64,000 nucleotides of DNA, taken from NCBI GenBank assembly GCA_030425705.1, contig JAUHZU010000016.1:1-64000 (forward strand), given 5' to 3'. A program made the translations under genes and the position numbers. Shown here in pieces: positions 38,195-46,043 of the stretch. The notes below the pieces were generated by a model. The model searched no databases. It was not told the origin of the DNA and saw only the letters and a list, made by a program, of their open reading frames with translations. Each line of letters begins with the position of its first letter. Within the stretch, counting starts at the first letter, position 1. The DNA is from Phycisphaerae bacterium. Lineage in GTDB: Bacteria; Planctomycetota; Phycisphaerae; Phycisphaerales; Phycisphaeraceae.

Positions 38195-39313
38195 TCACCG
38201 CCGTCGGCGGAGCAACGCCAGGCCCGCGAGCAGCAGAGCGCCCGATGCCGGCTCGGGCACCGGGCCGAACCGATCGGCAAAGTCGATCGGCAGGTCGAAC
38301 GCGTGGGCTGAGCCGGTCCGGTAGATGCCAAGCGTCGGCGAGTAGGTCCGCACGTGGATCACGCCGTTCTCCTCGTCGAACTCGTAGAGCCGGATCCACC
38401 CCTCGATGGTCCCGGTGCGGTCGTCGTTTGCGTAGTCCTGCACGATCGTGAACACGTCGTTGCCCGCGTCGTTGGTTCGGGTCTGATGGAGTGCCTGCCC
38501 GGTGTGCCCGCCGAGCACCATAAAGACCTGGTCGTTGCCGGTGATCAGTTCGTCCCAGATCTCGTTGGCGCTGTTACGGCCCGGCCCGCTGAGGTACGGG
38601 TGGTTGGGCGGGCCGAACTGCGTCCCCTCAAACACGTGGGTGCTGATGATCGTGGGCATCCCGGGGTGGGCATCGATCACGCTCTGCGCCCAGGCCAGCG
38701 ATTCGTCTGGGATGTCCACCTGCAGGTGCAGGTGCAGATACTCCCGCCCCCCGCCGTCGTAGACGAAGTAGGTGTCGACGTCGTTGTCGGCCGCGCCGCC
38801 GAACTGGGACATGCCGTCGTAATGCCCGGTCGTTTCGGGGCCGAAGTAGGTCTTCCAGATTTCAAAACCGCTGGGGGGCACCGGCGTGCCCGGGTTCGCC
38901 GAGGACCACCAGCTTGAACCGGGTATGAGGCCCGGGCGGACATCGACCCAGTCCAGTTCATGGTTCCCGGCCAGGGTCCCCCAGCCGACCGGCGTCGCGT
39001 CGAGCAGCGACATCGCGTTGTTGGCACGCTCCCACTGCTGGGCGTTGTTCGTTGTCGGTGCCGGGGTGCCAGGTGAGCCGTAGCCGCCGTCCTGAACGAT
39101 GTCGCCGAGTTGGGTCACGAACGCGATGTTGTAGTCCGTGTAGTGGTCTGCGACCCACTGCATGTTGTCGTAAAAGACCTGCCCGCCGGCCTCGGACTGG
39201 ACGAGAACCTGTGTGTCGCCGACACCGACCAGCGTCCAGGGCTCCTGCCCCGCTGCCGACAGGGCGAGGGCGGTCGAGGTCAGTACGGCTGCAGTGATCG
39301 CGGGAAACTTCAT
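38195..39313 (-). CDS. PEP-CTERM metallophosphoesterase
   Basis: 372 residues: a signal peptide, a calcineurin-like phosphoesterase domain, and a C-terminal PEP-CTERM sorting signal ([21 protein letters not shown]). The metal-site blocks are VGVGDTQ (Gln in place of the usual His of DxH), TQLGDIVQDG, AGNHELDW, STHVFEG and GGHTGQ (the second His of GHxH is Gly). DTQ occurs in some branches of this superfamily, so activity is not excluded. The PEP-CTERM tag predicts sorting by an exosortase; none is in this window. AAGGA lies five bases before the ATG at 39313. It is the last gene of the sigma-factor cluster. Confidence 0.88.
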   Translation of the reverse strand: MKFPAITAAVLTSTALALSAAGQEPWTLVGVGDTQVLVQSEAGGQVFYDNMQWVADHYTDYNIAFVTQLGDIVQDGGYGSPGTPAPTTNNAQQWERANNAMSLLDATPVGWGTLAGNHELDWVDVRPGLIPGSSWWSSANPGTPVPPSGFEIWKTYFGPETTGHYDGMSQFGGAADNDVDTYFVYDGGGREYLHLHLQVDIPDESLAWAQSVIDAHPGMPTIISTHVFEGTQFGPPNHPYLSGPGRNSANEIWDELITGNDQVFMVLGGHTGQALHQTRTNDAGNDVFTIVQDYANDDRTGTIEGWIRLYEFDEENGVIHVRTYSPTLGIYRTGSAHAFDLPIDFADRFGPVPEPASGALLLAGLALLRRRR

Positions 39314-39368
39314 GGGTTCCTTCTCCAAAGGGGATCAGTTGTGAGACAAGGTTGCGTGGTTGTACAAC

Positions 39369-40277
39369 TCAGCCCGGAGCCGAGATCGGCTCGACATCGG
39401 CCTGCCGGACGTGGCCCTCGAGGCGGAGGGAGTGGTCCTCGAACACCAGCAGCCGGCCGAAGCTGTTGTTCTCTCCGCCGGCCCCCTCGACCATCGCTCG
39501 GACGACCACATAGTCGATCCCGTTCACCTGCTCGTGCAGGTTCTGGTGCGAGTGGCCCGAGAGCACAAGCATGACCTTGCCCGAGGCCTCCATGATCGCG
39601 CGCGCCGCCGCGCCGTTGCGCACGTTGTGCGGGCCTTCGAGGCCGTCGATGCGCTGGTGCGTGAGGACGACGGCAGGGCCGGGCGCCTCATCGAGTTGCT
39701 GCTCGAACCAGGCGAGCTGGTCGTCCGGCAGGTTCGCATCGGTCCAACTGAAATTGCCCCGCTGGTATGGCTCACCCTCAGAGGTAAAGCACGAGTCGAG
39801 GATGATGAACCGAACCCCCGCGAGGTCGAAGCTGCTGTGCGGCGAGGTCATACCGCTGTTCTCAATAAACTCGTCCTTCGTCAGGAGGTGGACGCAGTGG
39901 TTGCCGAGCACGTAGTGTCGGTCGGCTTCGAGCCGGGCGTATTCGGCATCGATCGTCCGGAGGTGGCGGACCTCGCTCTCCAGGTCGCCGGCCGAATCGA
40001 TCAGGTCGCCCATCACGACCGCCGCATCGATACCTAGTTCGTTCAGGCCCGTGACCGCCGCACGCATCTTGCCCAGCGAATCCCGGTAGTGCCGGCTGCC
40101 ACGGGTGGCGATGTCGGCGTAGTGGACGTCGGTAATCAACCCCAGCCCGGCAACGGGCTCGGCCGATCCCCCCTCGGCGAAAGCGATCGGCAGACGACCC
40201 GCCAAACAGCCGCCGGCCAGCGCGAGGCCGGCCTGGCCCAGGAACCGTCGACGGGTCAGTGTCTTGGAGTTGGGCAT
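39369..40277 (-). CDS. Tat-exported metallophosphoesterase
   Basis: 302 residues with a twin-arginine signal (TLTRRRFLGQAGLALAGGCLAG). It is a calcineurin-type phosphoesterase with all metal blocks intact: LITDVHYAD (DxH), VVMGDLIDSAG, YVLGNHCVH, VLTHQRIDG and LSGHSHQN (GHxH). Tat export suggests that the metal is inserted in the cytoplasm. The substrate is unknown. AAGGAAA precedes the ATG at 40277. It lies 62 bp after the pseudopilin gene and 55 bp before the PEP-CTERM phosphoesterase, all in the same direction, so the two phosphoesterases are probably co-expressed and exported by different routes. Confidence 0.9.
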   Translation of the reverse strand: MPNSKTLTRRRFLGQAGLALAGGCLAGRLPIAFAEGGSAEPVAGLGLITDVHYADIATRGSRHYRDSLGKMRAAVTGLNELGIDAAVVMGDLIDSAGDLESEVRHLRTIDAEYARLEADRHYVLGNHCVHLLTKDEFIENSGMTSPHSSFDLAGVRFIILDSCFTSEGEPYQRGNFSWTDANLPDDQLAWFEQQLDEAPGPAVVLTHQRIDGLEGPHNVRNGAAARAIMEASGKVMLVLSGHSHQNLHEQVNGIDYVVVRAMVEGAGGENNSFGRLLVFEDHSLRLEGHVRQADVEPISAPG

Positions 40278-40339
40278 ACCCGTTTCCTTAGGGAGAGAGA
40301 ACAAATCCTATCCGCGGAACAAGCGGCGAGGGAGGCGGT

Positions 40340-41086
40340 TTAGTTGTCCGGGTGGTACTCGCTGTTCGGCGGCAGGTAAATCTGACCAAAACTATTGGGC
40401 CGGGCGTACATCTCGTCGATGGTCAGGAACCGGGCGCTCCCGTCGGCGAACACATTCGTGACGTTCTCGACATCGGACACCGCGTCGGATGACCACTGGG
40501 CGTAGGCCGGTCCCAGTGACGGATCGCCGTTCTCATCCCACACCCCGGTGGACTTGCGGACATGATTGGCACGCATGTTCCCCCAGCCGGAGACGAAGGC
40601 GGCGTGCTCTGCCCAGAGCGCATCCTCCGACGAGGCGGACATATTCTTGATCGGCGATACATAGGTGCCGGTCTCGTAGTTCGCCATGTAGACGTAGTTC
40701 CACCGCGCTGAGACCGTGCCGTCGGGATCGGGGGCCTCGTGCGGCGGCGCGACCGGGCAGACAAACACCTCGGGTGATTCGCTGAGGTGGTCAAGGATCA
40801 CATCGGCCAGATTGTAGAGCGAGCCGTCGGGGTTCAAGGTGGTAAACGCGTAGAAGTACGGCAGGCCGTTGCCCCCGACCCCCGGGTGGGTAGGGAAGTT
40901 GCCTTTGCTCTCGCTGGCATAACTGGTGAGCCCGACGCCGACCTGGCGGTGGTTGACCAGGCACTGGGTCATCCGGGCCGAGCGTTTTGCGGCCCCAAGC
41001 GCGGGCAGGAGGATCGCGATCAACAGCGCGATGATGGAGATCACGACCAGCAGTTCGATCAGGGTAAATCCGTTGCGGCGTTGCAT
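40340..41086 (-). CDS. prepilin-like (pseudopilin) protein
   Basis: 248 residues. The N-terminus is a type IV prepilin/type II secretion signal, [27 protein letters not shown], with the peptidase site after Gly and Glu at +5. The large C-terminal head resembles the planctomycete pseudopilins often labelled DUF1559, including a closing [10 protein letters not shown]. Such proteins are very numerous in planctomycetes and their role is not settled; they may build short pseudopili or act as type II export components. GGAAG precedes the ATG at 41086; the frame is open to 41173. It lies between a PEP-CTERM protein and a Tat phosphoesterase. Confidence 0.88.
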
Positions 41087-41169
41087 GGTGGGCTTCCGTA
41101 GCGGGAGGTCGGGGACGTCAGGAAAACCGCGCACCCGACCGAACGGGGACGCGGCGGTGGAGGAGCAGG

Positions 41170-41868
41170 TCAAGCACGGCGACGCCGGAGCAGCGCCAGG
41201 CCGCCCAGCCCGAGCAACGCCAGAGAACCGGGTTCGGGGATGTCAGCGATGCTGCCGATCGTCAGGTTGTCGAAGGACATGGTCGAACCAAAGTCTTCCA
41301 CGCCGATGAACAGGTCCTGAGAACCGACGGCGGCGAGGGTATAGGTATCCAAGAGGGTGAACCCGCCGCCGTCGTCGTAGCCGACCGAGAAACTCGTATC
41401 CGTGTTGCGGAGGATGTACATCGTGATAGCGGTGTCGGTGAAGACGGGTACGGCATAGTCGACATCGGTGCCCGATCCGTCTTCGTATTTCCGGGACCGC
41501 AGCGTGTTTTCTCCGGAAAAAGCAAGACGGATGCCGTCGGCATCGCCGGTATTCGGGCCCCGCAAAATCGTGGAGACAGTAAGGTAGAAGTTGGTGGGCT
41601 GAGCGCTGGGCACGTCGACACTGAGGAATTCGCCCGCCTCAAGGTTCGCGGTGTTGTGGAAGACATCGAAAGTCCGGTTGCCCGTTGAATCGATGTTCAG
41701 TGTGCCACCGGAGACATCGAACCCGCCGCCCGCCGCCCCGTAGGTCACGGTCCCGGTGTAGTTTAGCGACGTATCGCTCGAAAAGTCATCGAAGAACGCT
41801 GCGCCGAGCGCGGGCTGTGCCACGAGAGCGCCGAGTCCGAGAGCCAAGGGGGTGGTTTTGCTGAGCAT
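41170..41868 (-). CDS. PEP-CTERM surface protein
   Basis: 232 residues with a signal peptide ([16 protein letters not shown]) and a complete PEP-CTERM tail ([23 protein letters not shown]). The body is beta-rich and resembles a LamG/concanavalin-type domain ([15 protein letters not shown] near the start, [13 protein letters not shown] near the end). It is probably cut and released or anchored by an exosortase system. AGGAG lies eight bases before the ATG. It is the first structural gene after the sigma and FecR genes, and it shares the closing FDNL motif with the FecR protein. Confidence 0.88.
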
Positions 41869-41955
41869 TTCTTACACTCCTAGGTGAGTTGGTGGGCCTG
41901 CGGCCGCCCGGGGTTTCAATAGGTCCGCAGCATGATTAGGGCGACACCGCCCTCG

Positions 41956-43677
41956 TTAGTCGGGGATCGATTCCAGCCGGAGGTTGTCGAAGCCGAACGT
42001 TCGGCCGCGGTAGTACGAAAACGCCTCCACACCGACGGACAGCGGCAGGTCCTCGTCGAGGCCGGTGTGTGTGCGTTCACCGATCAGCCGCCACTGTGCC
42101 TCGCCTTCAAAGCGCACCCAGAAGGCGAAACGCGAGCGGCTGATACGCCCGATCGCGAGTCCGGCGGGGACGCCTTCGCAGATCAGGTCGTAGGAAGCGT
42201 CCCCGCCGGGCGGGGCGCCGTCGTGTTCGATACGGATCCCGTTGTCTTTGACATCCCAACGCAGACGGAAGCCACGTGAGCCGTTGCGCATCGGGTTCTC
42301 GGGGTCGGCCGGCCCGGGCTGGGCGGCACCGGTCGAGATCGCGAGGAACAAGGTGTACAGGTCGTCGCCTCCAACATTCGAGAGCGGAGACAATTCCACC
42401 TGCCAGCGTGTGCCGGTCGGCAACGCTCGACCCTCGGGCTGCATGTAGCAGCAGACGGTGTTGTTCCCGCCCGGCTCCAGGAGCAGCCGACCAGAACGAA
42501 CTCGCGCAGAGCCCGGCGTGCTCCCATCCGTCACATAACCTTGCCCCACTACAAACCGCTCTATGGCGCGATCATCTTCGAACGGCTCCACGACGAGTTG
42601 CCGGCGTTCCGCGAATGAAGCAAACCCCTCAAAGTCCTGTGGCAGATCGTTCGGGACCGGAGCATCTGCCCGGATCGTCACGGGCTGGTCCCCTACACTG
42701 ACGAGCAGGTCCGAACGTCCAAGGCCGACACGCCGCTGGTCCGATTGGAACTCTACGCTGCCGGCAAAGACATACGATCCGACGCGCTGCGGCTCGACCT
42801 GAATACCAAGACGGGCCCCTACGCTTGAGAAACGCCCGCGCTCGGTATCGAGTTGGAACGCCCCACTGCCGGCAGGTGACTCGCACAAGACCCGGCCGCG
42901 GTGGACCATCATCCCGTTACGATTGGTCAGGACGAGTTCAGCCGGGGCCAGCACGGTGACCACCGCCCCGCTGGGGTAGACCAGCTCCGCGACGCCGGAC
43001 TCGAGGCGGTACGTCCCGGACGCCAGCGAGACACCCGGCAGGCGTGTCGGCAAGGACTCGGCATTCGCCCAGCCCGCGGTGGACCGCAGCGACAGCACCA
43101 CCCCGGTATCGACGCTGTCAGCAGGCGCACCCGGGCCGGGCGCGGTCGGCTGCTGGCCGGCGGTTGGCGGGGAGGAAGATGGGTTCCGTCCCGCGGTGAG
43201 CCAGACCGTCAGCAGCATCAGCAACGCGACCGCCGCCGCGAGCAGGCCCCAGGAAAGCACACGGATCGAGCCCTCACCGACACGGTGCTGTTCGCGGTAG
43301 CGGGCCCGCATCGCGGCTTCCCTGCGGTCGAGTTTTCTTTGACGGGACTGCCGCGCACGAATGCTGTCGGTGATGTCCACCGGTGGCACGGTGTCCGCCG
43401 AGGCCTCCATCGCAAGCAAGTCTTTCAGGTGGCTTGTGCCGGGAATCGGGTCGGTCCCCAGGTCGGCAAGGAGGTCGTCCTCTTCGAGTTCGAGTAGGCC
43501 ATCGACTTCCAACGCGCCGCGGTACTGATCGCGTAGCGCGACATCGAAGCGTACTGCCTCGATAAACTGTTTCGCGAGGTCCGGCTCCTCGGCGAGGCGG
43601 GCACTAAACGCCGCCATCGTCTCGGGGTCCATCGAGCGGTCGAGGTAGGCGTTGATGTGGGGGTCTTCGTGGATCAC
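41956..43677 (-). CDS. FecR-type transmembrane regulator with LamG-like C-terminus
   Basis: 573 residues. The cytoplasmic N-terminus (about 1-135) is acidic and helical (MDPETMAAFSARLAEEPDL), as in sigma-binding proteins. One TM helix follows (VLSWGLLAAAVALLMLLTVWL, about 140-163). A FecR domain (about 215-330, RLESGVAELVYPSGAVVTVLAP and MMVHRGRVLCE) comes next. A C-terminal beta-rich region ends FGFDNLRLESIPD, reminiscent of the PEP-CTERM protein downstream without its sorting tail. The GTG start at 43677 overlaps the sigma-factor stop as GTGA, so the two are translationally coupled. Anti-sigma or signal-transducing function is inferred from this pairing. Confidence 0.87.
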   Translation of the reverse strand: MIHEDPHINAYLDRSMDPETMAAFSARLAEEPDLAKQFIEAVRFDVALRDQYRGALEVDGLLELEEDDLLADLGTDPIPGTSHLKDLLAMEASADTVPPVDITDSIRARQSRQRKLDRREAAMRARYREQHRVGEGSIRVLSWGLLAAAVALLMLLTVWLTAGRNPSSSPPTAGQQPTAPGPGAPADSVDTGVVLSLRSTAGWANAESLPTRLPGVSLASGTYRLESGVAELVYPSGAVVTVLAPAELVLTNRNGMMVHRGRVLCESPAGSGAFQLDTERGRFSSVGARLGIQVEPQRVGSYVFAGSVEFQSDQRRVGLGRSDLLVSVGDQPVTIRADAPVPNDLPQDFEGFASFAERRQLVVEPFEDDRAIERFVVGQGYVTDGSTPGSARVRSGRLLLEPGGNNTVCCYMQPEGRALPTGTRWQVELSPLSNVGGDDLYTLFLAISTGAAQPGPADPENPMRNGSRGFRLRWDVKDNGIRIEHDGAPPGGDASYDLICEGVPAGLAIGRISRSRFAFWVRFEGEAQWRLIGERTHTGLDEDLPLSVGVEAFSYYRGRTFGFDNLRLESIPD

Positions 43678-44228
43678 TGCCCCACCCCCCGTCGGCCGAG
43701 CTCGTGGTTCACACACTCTCGCAGGGCCTTTCGCGAGCGGTGCAGGATCGATCCCACGGTGCCGCGTGCGACGGCCAGGTGGTCCGCGATCGCGTCGAGC
43801 TTCTTCCCGTCACGATAAAACAGCTCGACCACCTGCTTGCTCCGGCCGCGCAGCCGCTGCATGCAGCGGCCCAGCGCGTTGCGCACATCGGTGTCGGGCT
43901 CGGTCTCGCATTCCTTGTGAGCCTGCGCCAGTGCCTCCAGCGCCTCGTCGGAAAAGAAGACCCGTGTGTCGCGTGACTTCTCCCGCCGATACCGCAAGAC
44001 CTCGATGTGCGCGATGCTTACAGCCCAAGACGTGAACGATCGCTCTTCATCGAAGTCGGCGAACTTACGGATCGCCGACATCGCGGTCCGCTGCAGCAGG
44101 TCCTCCGCGTCGTGGTGGTCGTACACCAGTGACGCCAGGTACGCCGCGACGGCGGGCTGTGACCTTGTCCAGAGCCCGGCGATCTGCTCGATGCGTTGGT
44201 GGACCTGGTTGTCGGTTGGTGAATCCAC
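43674..44228 (-). CDS. ECF-type RNA polymerase sigma factor
   Basis: A 184-residue extracytoplasmic-function sigma factor with regions 2 and 4 only. Region 2 contains YDHHDAEDLLQRTAMSAIRKFADFDEERSFTSWAVSIAHIEVLRYRR, and region 4 the helix-turn-helix RSKQVVELFYRDGKKLDAIADHLAVARGTVGSILHRSRKALRECV. It belongs to the branch found beside FecR proteins in planctomycetes and Verrucomicrobia. The start is a GTG with TAGGAG upstream. It heads a co-directional run of six genes and presumably reads at least part of that run. The 219 bp upstream to the divergent sulfotransferase gene are A+T-rich and hold no clear promoter match. Confidence 0.92.
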   Translation of the reverse strand: MDSPTDNQVHQRIEQIAGLWTRSQPAVAAYLASLVYDHHDAEDLLQRTAMSAIRKFADFDEERSFTSWAVSIAHIEVLRYRREKSRDTRVFFSDEALEALAQAHKECETEPDTDVRNALGRCMQRLRGRSKQVVELFYRDGKKLDAIADHLAVARGTVGSILHRSRKALRECVNHELGRRGVGQ

Positions 44229-44447: not shown

Positions 44448-46043
44448 ATGTCACGAAAACAAAGGCGCGCCGGTGCGAAAGCCGGCCCTAAACAAAACGC
44501 GAAACGGCCGCAGCCAGCCGCCGCAGAACAGGCAAGCTTCCGCTTGTCCGCTGCGCGTGGCCTGCTGAAAGCCAGCCGGTTCGCGGAGGCGTACATGGCA
44601 TATCGCTCTCTGATCTTTGATCCCCCGGGGTGCCGTGAGGCCGTGCCGGAGCTGCTGCAAGCATTGGCCCAACGCAGCGCCCTGGCCGAGGCCGAGTTTA
44701 TTGCTGTGCGGGCGACGGAGCGCTTTCGTGATGACAGCCGGGCCTGGCTTGAGTTGGGTCATATCCGGCAGAAGCTTGGCCGGGCCGCTGCGGCGATCGA
44801 TGCCTACCGCCAGGCGCTCGTGTTGGACGACCAAGGTGCGCATGCCTGGGCAGGACTCGCGCAGGTGTACGAACGCCTGCACCGGCTCGAAGAAGCGTTG
44901 GAAGCAATCGACGCGGCGATCAACCTCCTGCCCGGATCGAACTACCTCCGGCACTGTCGGGGCGTGATCCTCCGACGCATGGGCCGCCTCGAGGAAGCCA
45001 AGCACACACAGCACGGGGTGCTCTCAGCAACCGCAGACGAAGACGCGTTGTTGCAGCACCGGGTCTGGCATGAGTTGTGCCAAGTCCACCGCGCTGCCGG
45101 CGATCTCCCGGCATCGCACGACGCGTTAGCTCGTTGCAAGACGGCACAGGCCCCGCTTGCCGAGCCGCTGCACGACCGGTTTACCGCATACCAAGCGGAG
45201 GTGGCCAAACGGTTTGATGGGTTGAGCGGCCGCACCGTCAAGCGCTGGGGGGAGCAAGTGGAGGCGAGCAACAGCATGCCCACCCCGCAGACCGCCTTCA
45301 TCGTTGGACACCCGCGCTCGGGCACGACGCTCACGGAGCAGGTGCTTGCTGCTCACCCCGCCGTCGTGACCCTCGATGAAAAAGAGGTCCTGCCACATGT
45401 CGAGGCAACCGTGTTTCCGCACGGGGCCGGCATTGCAGCGTTGGACCGTGTCGGCCCCGACGAGCAACAGCGCTTCCGCCAACTATACCTGCACGAGGTG
45501 GAGCGTTACCTTGCAACGCCCCTTGCAGGGCGGTACCTGATCGATAAGCGGCCTGACTCGCTGCTGATGGTTCCCACGATCCTGCGGATGATGCGCGGGG
45601 CGAAGCTGTTAGTTGTGATCCGCGACCCGAGGGATGTCTGCGCAAGCTGCTATCGGCAGGCATTTGAGCTGGGCATCGTGAGCGCTCAGTTCATTTCGAT
45701 TGAATCGACATGTCGGTACTACGCGTGGTTCATGTCGCATTGGCTGTACCTGCGCGATGTCTTGCCTGGGAAGTTTTGGCACGAGGTCCGGTATGAGTCG
45801 CTGGTCTCGGAATACGAGTCAAACACGCGGTCAATCACCGCGTTTCTGGGCCTCGGCTGGGACCCTGCGATGCTCGCGCCCGAGGAAGCCGCCTCGGACC
45901 GCCTGATCGCGACGCCCAGTTACGCGGCAGTGACGAGCCGGCCGAACCGAGACGCGATCGGCGGTTGGCAGGAGTTTGCCGATGCGTTTGAGCCGTGCCG
46001 GCCTGTCCTGCAGCCATTTTTAGACGCCTTCGGATACCAGTAG
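44448..46043 (+). CDS. TPR-sulfotransferase
   Basis: 531 residues. A basic N-terminus (SRKQRRAGAKAGPKQNAKR) is followed by TPR repeats (about 30-230; AWLELGHIRQKLGRAAAAIDAYRQA, AWAGLAQVYERLHRLEEALEAIDAA). A PAPS-dependent sulfotransferase domain comes next. The 5'-phosphosulfate loop is FIVGHPRSGTTLTEQVLAAHP, and the 3'-phosphate-binding motif is VIRDPRDVCASCY. The acceptor may be a glycan or a protein and cannot be deduced. TTAGGG stands seven bases before the ATG at 44448. It is divergent from the sigma-factor cluster and converges with lon. Confidence 0.93.
   Translation: MSRKQRRAGAKAGPKQNAKRPQPAAAEQASFRLSAARGLLKASRFAEAYMAYRSLIFDPPGCREAVPELLQALAQRSALAEAEFIAVRATERFRDDSRAWLELGHIRQKLGRAAAAIDAYRQALVLDDQGAHAWAGLAQVYERLHRLEEALEAIDAAINLLPGSNYLRHCRGVILRRMGRLEEAKHTQHGVLSATADEDALLQHRVWHELCQVHRAAGDLPASHDALARCKTAQAPLAEPLHDRFTAYQAEVAKRFDGLSGRTVKRWGEQVEASNSMPTPQTAFIVGHPRSGTTLTEQVLAAHPAVVTLDEKEVLPHVEATVFPHGAGIAALDRVGPDEQQRFRQLYLHEVERYLATPLAGRYLIDKRPDSLLMVPTILRMMRGAKLLVVIRDPRDVCASCYRQAFELGIVSAQFISIESTCRYYAWFMSHWLYLRDVLPGKFWHEVRYESLVSEYESNTRSITAFLGLGWDPAMLAPEEAASDRLIATPSYAAVTSRPNRDAIGGWQEFADAFEPCRPVLQPFLDAFGYQ

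Follow-up and report, generated by a model that had tools for sequence, protein, structure and literature searches.

Genes and features at the locus

The window, which is the whole 64,000-nucleotide stretch of Phycisphaerae DNA analysed here, carries on its minus strand a six-gene cassette that runs from a sigma factor gene at 44228 down to a tagged metallophosphatase gene at 38195. Its genes and the features within them are listed below.

43674..44228, minus strand: ECF sigma factor of 184 aa (TIGR02989, 144.1 bits, cut-off 124.55)
41956..43677, minus strand: putative FecR-like membrane anti-sigma protein of 573 aa (homology to paralogues)
43201..43260, minus strand: predicted single transmembrane stretch of FecR, about residues 140-159 (most hydrophobic 20-residue stretch)
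42706..43110, minus strand: FecR core, about residues 190-324 (alignment of 17 paralogues)
41965..42591, minus strand: FecR C-terminal domain, homologue of the cargo domain (sequence and profile comparisons)
41170..41868, minus strand: PEP-CTERM protein, the cargo, of 232 aa (PF07589, 29.1 bits, cut-off 20.7)
41245..41805, minus strand: cargo domain, homologue of the FecR C-terminal domain (bridge and profile matches)
41176..41244, minus strand: PEP-CTERM sorting tag, cargo residues 209-231 (Pfam scan)
40340..41173, minus strand: pseudopilin-like DUF1559-type ORF (N_methyl above cut-off, SBP_bac_10/DUF1559 just above cut-off)
39369..40304, minus strand: metallophosphatase (PF00149, 39.9 bits)
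38195..39328, minus strand: metallophosphatase with a PEP-CTERM tag (PF00149 above cut-off; TIGR02595, 18.3 bits, cut-off 16)

The sigma gene product also scored above the Pfam cut-offs for Sigma70_r2 and r4_2. The FecR gene follows it directly, its GTG start overlapping the stop codon of the sigma gene; an alternative in-frame GTG at 43716 would give a protein of 586 aa. The FecR protein has no Pfam or NCBIfam match of its own (none to PF04773 at E<=5), and we assigned it to the FecR-like proteins because it is homologous to, and aligns with, 16 paralogues in the same genome. Out of ten paralogues scanned, five exceeded the PF04773 cut-off and the other five gave sub-threshold matches. The C-terminal end of the FecR protein reads FGFDNLRLESIPD; this ending and that of the cargo, as quoted in a preliminary description of the window, are both in place in the ORF translations. 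By eye we recognised a signal peptide on the cargo and a likely ATG for the pseudopilin-like ORF at 41086. The tag of the second metallophosphatase scored below the cut-off of the Pfam PEP-CTERM model. Three matches above the cut-off to the exosortase family PF09721 were found in the window's genome (G000). The family names of TIGR02989 and of a neighbouring protein in G058 (PSCyt) suggest a planctomycete-like origin.

The whole six-gene cassette is collinear in a second genome of the same genus (G058), with identities of 71, 53 and 80% for the sigma factor, FecR and PEP-CTERM protein and of 79, 82 and 76% for the pseudopilin-like ORF, the metallophosphatase and the tagged metallophosphatase. 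Between fecR and the PEP-CTERM gene (41869-41955) lies a short inverted repeat of the form GGGC-loop-GCCC, which by eye is present in both genomes (also at L019:3205-3293) and is possibly an attenuator or a processing hairpin. A divergent gene for a TPR-sulfotransferase (PF13469) at 44448-46043 also keeps its position in G058 at 57% identity, and relatives about 30% identical to it are found in the L052, L063 and L072 loci.

Relatedness of the FecR end and the cargo domain

The preliminary description had noted that the FecR protein ends like the cargo without its sorting tag. It proposed that, if both have the same LamG-like fold, the cargo domain would be present on the regulator as a tethered copy, which might act as a feedback sensor for whose FecR module secreted cargo or its ligand competes. 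Direct alignment of FecR residues 361-573 with cargo residues 15-212 was collinear, with 24% identity and E=0.003, a score reached by 3 of 2000 shuffles of the cargo. The two-sequence profile comparison proposed in that description gave a HHalign probability of 18.5% (E=1.3e-3), and in the test of 82 FecR proteins described below the window pair reached 27% over 24 columns. Both proteins close on the motif FDNL; FDN[LVI] occurs within the last 25 residues of 2 of 135 FecR ends, these being the window protein and its orthologue, and of 6 of 107 cargo ends. This short tail was considered insufficient as sole proof of relatedness, and a bridge protein was used instead.

A search of 294 genomes of the phylum with the FecR end led to one further relative, L163 in genome G451 (E=2.8e-7), where the match closes a protein that also has DUF3592 and DUF4886 domains. 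Picked by its likeness to FecR alone, L163 matches the cargo at E=5e-16 and FecR at E=2e-14. When it was added to the cargo side only, the profile comparison rose to 97.7% (E=1.9e-12, 166 columns), and when it was added to the FecR side only the probability was 85% (E=6e-6). Amongst 4917 ORFs from 117 loci, L163 matched only the cargo-FecR pair of the window and that of the orthologous locus L076 (E from 7e-12 to 6e-8, next best 2.8). Since a bridge chosen without regard to the cargo matches both proteins, we conclude from these sequence comparisons that FecR from about residue 360 to 573 and the cargo from about residue 22 to 208 are homologous. That the pair share a common FDNL tail by chance on two unrelated folds is very improbable, given the bridge and a collinearity across about 200 residues, even though their direct likeness is weak and structure models could not decide the matter. 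The locus thus almost certainly holds an adjacent sigma factor, FecR-type regulator and PEP-CTERM protein in which the C-terminal domain of the regulator is homologous to the domain of the cargo.

The proposed tethered homologue was therefore borne out, and the name LamG was not: neither the window FecR nor the cargo matched Pfam LamG/Laminin_G_3 (PF13385) at E<=5. Structure prediction, also proposed at the outset, gave models too poor for the folds to be compared. The single-sequence AlphaFold model of the cargo was poor (mean pLDDT 47.4, pTM 0.52) and found 3mep as its top Foldseek hit (E=4.4e-4, TM 0.45), followed by SPRY domains and L-type lectins among others, its best matches being sandwich folds at TM values of about 0.45 or below; the FecR model made in the same way was unusable (pLDDT 38.7) and gave nothing below E=1.6. 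A concanavalin-like fold of the cargo domain is thus a lead from a poor model. A profile built from the FecR end, the cargo domain and L163 (A6) had no meaningful match amongst solved structures (best E 0.24).

With all candidates scored, the A6 profile found two copies each in the window's genome and in G058 and a single copy in G451; G076, G088 and G139 had none. Each time, the two copies in G000 and in G058 lie in the neighbouring FecR and cargo genes. Over 392 genomes of the phylum, with at most the eight best candidates scored per genome, A6 was found in G000 and G451. The whole cargo protein, searched against 298 genomes of the class at E<=1e-12 with at most the nine best candidates per genome, retrieved only itself. 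On present sequence comparisons the FecR end domain of the window is a rare family distinct from Laminin_G_3.

Sister cassettes and the matching of regulators to their cargos

The window's genome contains 17 sigma-FecR pairs, 15 of which have a PEP-CTERM gene downstream on the same strand within 2.6 kb and all 17 of which have a PEP-CTERM or a pseudopilin gene downstream. In three further genomes of the genus a PEP-CTERM gene stands beside FecR at 14 of 16 (G058), 14 of 20 (G076) and 36 of 38 (G088) loci, so that 79 of the 91 FecR loci of this one genus have a sigma/FecR pair with a PEP-CTERM gene alongside. In G015, from another family of the same order, a PEP-CTERM gene is present at 1 of 46 FecR loci and a pseudopilin gene at 29. 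A sigma gene adjoins 134 of the 137 FecR ORFs in the fetched loci. PEP-CTERM and pseudopilin genes were recognised at these loci by regular expressions, and many loci of G076 and G088 lie near contig ends. The FecR matches and the ORFs recovered in fetched loci number 17 and 16 (G058), 20 and 20 (G076), 40 and 38 (G088) and 56 and 46 (G015), the shortfall being due to loci that are partial, weak or outside the fetched set.

At 99 of the 137 loci (L046-L161) a pseudopilin-like gene is found no more than 3.5 kb downstream of FecR, so that the FecR cassettes are tied to pseudopilins and not to PEP-CTERM genes alone. By genome these are 13/17 in G000, 11/16 in G058, 11/20 in G076, 35/38 in G088 and 29/46 in G015. 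The regulator family is strongly expanded in family f6, where FecR-core matches number at least 56 in G015, at least 99 in G010 and at least 95 in G025 amongst the best 150 candidates scored of 158, 179 and 182, respectively.

In four genomes, each of 82 FecR ends was set against every listed cargo of its own genome by HHalign, with FecR profiles built from FecR ends only and cargo profiles from cargos only. FecR ends shorter than 90 residues were left out, which retained 135 of 137, and for loci with no PEP-CTERM gene downstream the nearest one upstream on the same strand was taken if present, as at L060. For 12 of the 82 FecRs the best cargo was their own, where 4.0 were expected (s.d. 1.7) and none of 2000 permutations reached this number. 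Own pairs reached a probability of at least 80 in 11 of the 82 (5.1 expected, 1 of 2000 permutations). The enrichment of own-best cases was found in G000 (4 of 16, reached by 15 of 2000 permutations) and G058 (5 of 14, 6 of 2000); there was none in G076 (2 of 16, 455 of 2000) or G088 (1 of 36, 1470 of 2000). Amongst the 12 own-best cases the probabilities for L068 and L092 are below 3% and those for the window and L076 are 27%. For the other 70 FecRs the best-scoring cargo was a foreign one.

LamG, which is present on many FecRs and few cargos, is the source of much of the noise in this test. The FecRs of the sister loci L048, L050, L054 and L060 end in Laminin_G_3; the LamG cluster itself was defined by sequence clustering and includes L049/L066, though Pfam sees no LamG in the L049 FecR. 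Outside this cluster (32 FecRs), 6 of 39 own pairs matched at E<1e-3 as against 0 of 955 foreign pairs (Fisher 2.5e-9); the six are not independent cases because they represent three locus types, each in two genomes. At E<1e-5 the numbers were 4 of 39 and 0 of 955, and the window pair drops out. For the 50 LamG FecRs, 12 of 68 own and 111 of 1488 foreign pairs matched at E<1e-3 (p=0.009), and significance was lost at E<1e-5 (9 of 68 own against 104 of 1488 foreign, p=0.088). These pooled tests count some pairs twice because the loci of G000 and G058 are partly orthologous. Sharing of a domain by FecR and its own cargo thus appears as a minority condition that is nevertheless enriched amongst sigma-FecR-PEP-CTERM loci. 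A universal pairing of FecR and cargo was ruled out, since most FecRs have no match to their own cargo and the sensor domain class A10 matched FecRs only in G000 and G058.

Two more locus types share a domain between regulator and cargo. At L058/L064 the FecR end is 37% and 44% identical by BLAST to a cargo with a DNRLRE domain, and at L052/L063 the identity is 26-27% by BLAST with a HHalign probability of 97%. At L075 a sulfatase gene holds the only non-FecR match in G058 (E<=0.001) to the end domain of the FecR at this locus; the sulfatase lies outside the cargo set of the 82 FecRs, was flagged as PEP by a looser expression only and has a tail unlike a clear PEP-CTERM. BLAST matches of a FecR fragment at a contig end (L082, 3-758) were set aside. 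Relatives of the tagged metallophosphatase of the window, with 36% identity, recur beside the FecR-cargo pairs of one of these further locus types (L058:4997-6154 and L064:2759-4270). In G015, a pseudopilin fused to LamG lies one gene apart from a FecR whose LamG domain is 42% identical to its own (E=6e-49; the two ORFs are at L144, 9980-10909 and 11653-12999), possibly a case of domain sharing with a pilin-type product. The other carriers of the shared domains, namely the DUF4886 hydrolase-like protein L163, the L075 sulfatase, the DNRLRE cargo of L058 and LamG, suggest a link to glycans.

Possible mechanisms and comparison with known systems

We tentatively rank first a sense-and-display cassette in which, by analogy with RsgI, FecR would sense the ligand that is bound by the displayed cargo, because the other carriers of shared domains (sulfatase, DUF4886, DNRLRE, LamG) favour glycans. 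The C-terminal domain of FecR would face the periplasm and share its ligand, most likely a polysaccharide or another glycan, with the displayed cargo. Once FecR has bound the ligand, proteases would cut it and release the sigma factor, as in known FecR-class systems, and the free sigma factor would transcribe the cassette. After export and processing by an exosortase, the cargo would be displayed in contact with that ligand. A tethered relative of the product would thus serve as the sensor, and cargo would be supplied when its ligand is present. This proposal is consistent with the homology and adjacency of both domain copies in G000 and G058, with the sigma type, the PEP-CTERM tag, the three exosortase matches and the conservation of six genes in G058, and with the enrichment of own-cargo matches over permuted and foreign pairs; the anti-sigma factors of the RsgI type, with their C-terminal carbohydrate-binding modules, provide a precedent (PMC4711584). 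Several results speak against it: a foreign cargo is the best match of 70 of the 82 FecRs, own-cargo matches are not enriched in G076 or G088, L068 and L092 count among the 12 own-best cases at probabilities below 3%, the stricter threshold removes the window pair and the significance of the LamG class, and the A10 class matches FecRs alone in G000 and G058. In addition, a k-mer analysis of the regions upstream of 89 sigma and 105 cargo genes turned up GC-rich words and a ribosome-binding signal and no common promoter motif, a null result that would also arise if each sigma factor read its own promoter.

One main rival, somewhat unlikely, is domain shuffling with no functional coupling, in which FecR ends and cargos would both sometimes draw on common secreted beta-sandwich domains, helped by local duplication, and their likeness would be irrelevant to signalling. 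That sharing is confined to a minority of loci, that two of the four genomes lack enrichment, that the A10 class has no cargo copy and that for LamG FecRs a match to a foreign LamG cargo comes about as easily as one to their own (111/1488 against 12/68) all fit this explanation. It accounts poorly for the 6/39 own against 0/955 foreign matches outside the LamG cluster at E<1e-3, for the rarity of the window domain (2 of 392 phylum genomes with at most the eight best candidates each) and for the adjacent, conserved copies in both G000 and G058.

The other main rival, about as likely as shuffling and nearest to the preliminary description, is that like pairs with like, such that unsorted cargo in the periplasm would pair with the homologous FecR domain and either shield FecR from proteolysis or trigger it, with sigma activity tracking export and sorting of the cargo in an autogenous feedback loop. 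The idea is reasonable because FoxR and FoxA set a precedent in the same regulator class (PMC11637429), and the homology of the two domains and the bias towards own cargo argue for it. It could not be general, because at most loci the cargo shows no detectable relationship to its FecR; moreover, the window FecR and cargo are just 24% identical and the domains look carbohydrate-related. Sensing of a shared ligand is the competing view and explains the same facts as cargo pairing. Somewhat less likely still in our opinion is a class-wide form of the pairing idea, an ECF sigma/FecR class with tens of members per genome, devoted to exosortase surface proteins and in a sister family to pseudopilins. 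There the FecR end, tethered and related to its own cargo's domain, would pair with unsorted cargo, transcription would follow export and sorting of that product, and the cargo itself would be the transducer in cell-surface signalling.

The shared domain raises the possibility that regulator and product sense a common target or one another. With a ligand common to sensor and cargo, a screen of either one would reveal what an orphan surface protein binds; if the FecR end and the cargo pair, the loop would be a new autogenous one. The matched FecR-cargo pairs are testable predictions under either reading.

Our literature search, which left most subscription papers uncovered and is weak evidence of absence, found no paper with both PEP-CTERM and FecR, nor one on such an arrangement. 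The paper that described PEP-CTERM proteins places a sigma-54 control element in Proteobacteria only and leaves further regulators to be found (PMC1569441). In the PrsK/PrsR system of that source, sigma-54, a kinase and a response regulator control many proteobacterial PEP-CTERM genes; regulation is linked to PEP-CTERM genes in both cases, whereas here one ECF/FecR pair stands beside each cargo. Within the regulator family itself, the FecRs that end in Laminin_G_3 likewise carry an extra C-terminal sandwich-like domain, but the window FecR has no Laminin_G_3 match and its end domain is different and rare.

Closer parallels come from two systems. In the biomass-sensing SigI/RsgI systems of Clostridium thermocellum, the RsgI anti-sigma factors sense polymers and have carbohydrate-binding modules at their ends (PMC4711584). 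As there, several paralogous sigma/anti-sigma pairs are present and the outside C-terminal domain of the anti-sigma factor is of the kind found on the controlled products. Unlike SigI, the window sigma factor is an ECF of TIGR02989 type, the window FecR has no RsgI domain (Pfam, E<=5), and the product is a PEP-CTERM protein whose carbohydrate binding is putative. In the FecIRA-type systems FoxI/FoxR/FoxA and PupR/PupB, the regulator's C-terminal periplasmic subdomain and a domain of the coupled surface protein are structural homologues (PMC11637429). The window resembles them in having a regulator of the FecR class whose C-terminal domain is related, here by sequence, to that of a surface protein. 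It differs in that those systems use an STN domain and a TonB-dependent transducer, neither of which was found by Pfam among the seven window proteins scanned, and in that the partner here is a PEP-CTERM protein. The principle of a sensor that resembles its product is already known; what seems new is the presence of many-copy ECF/FecR pairs beside exosortase cargo, with domains common to both in some of them.
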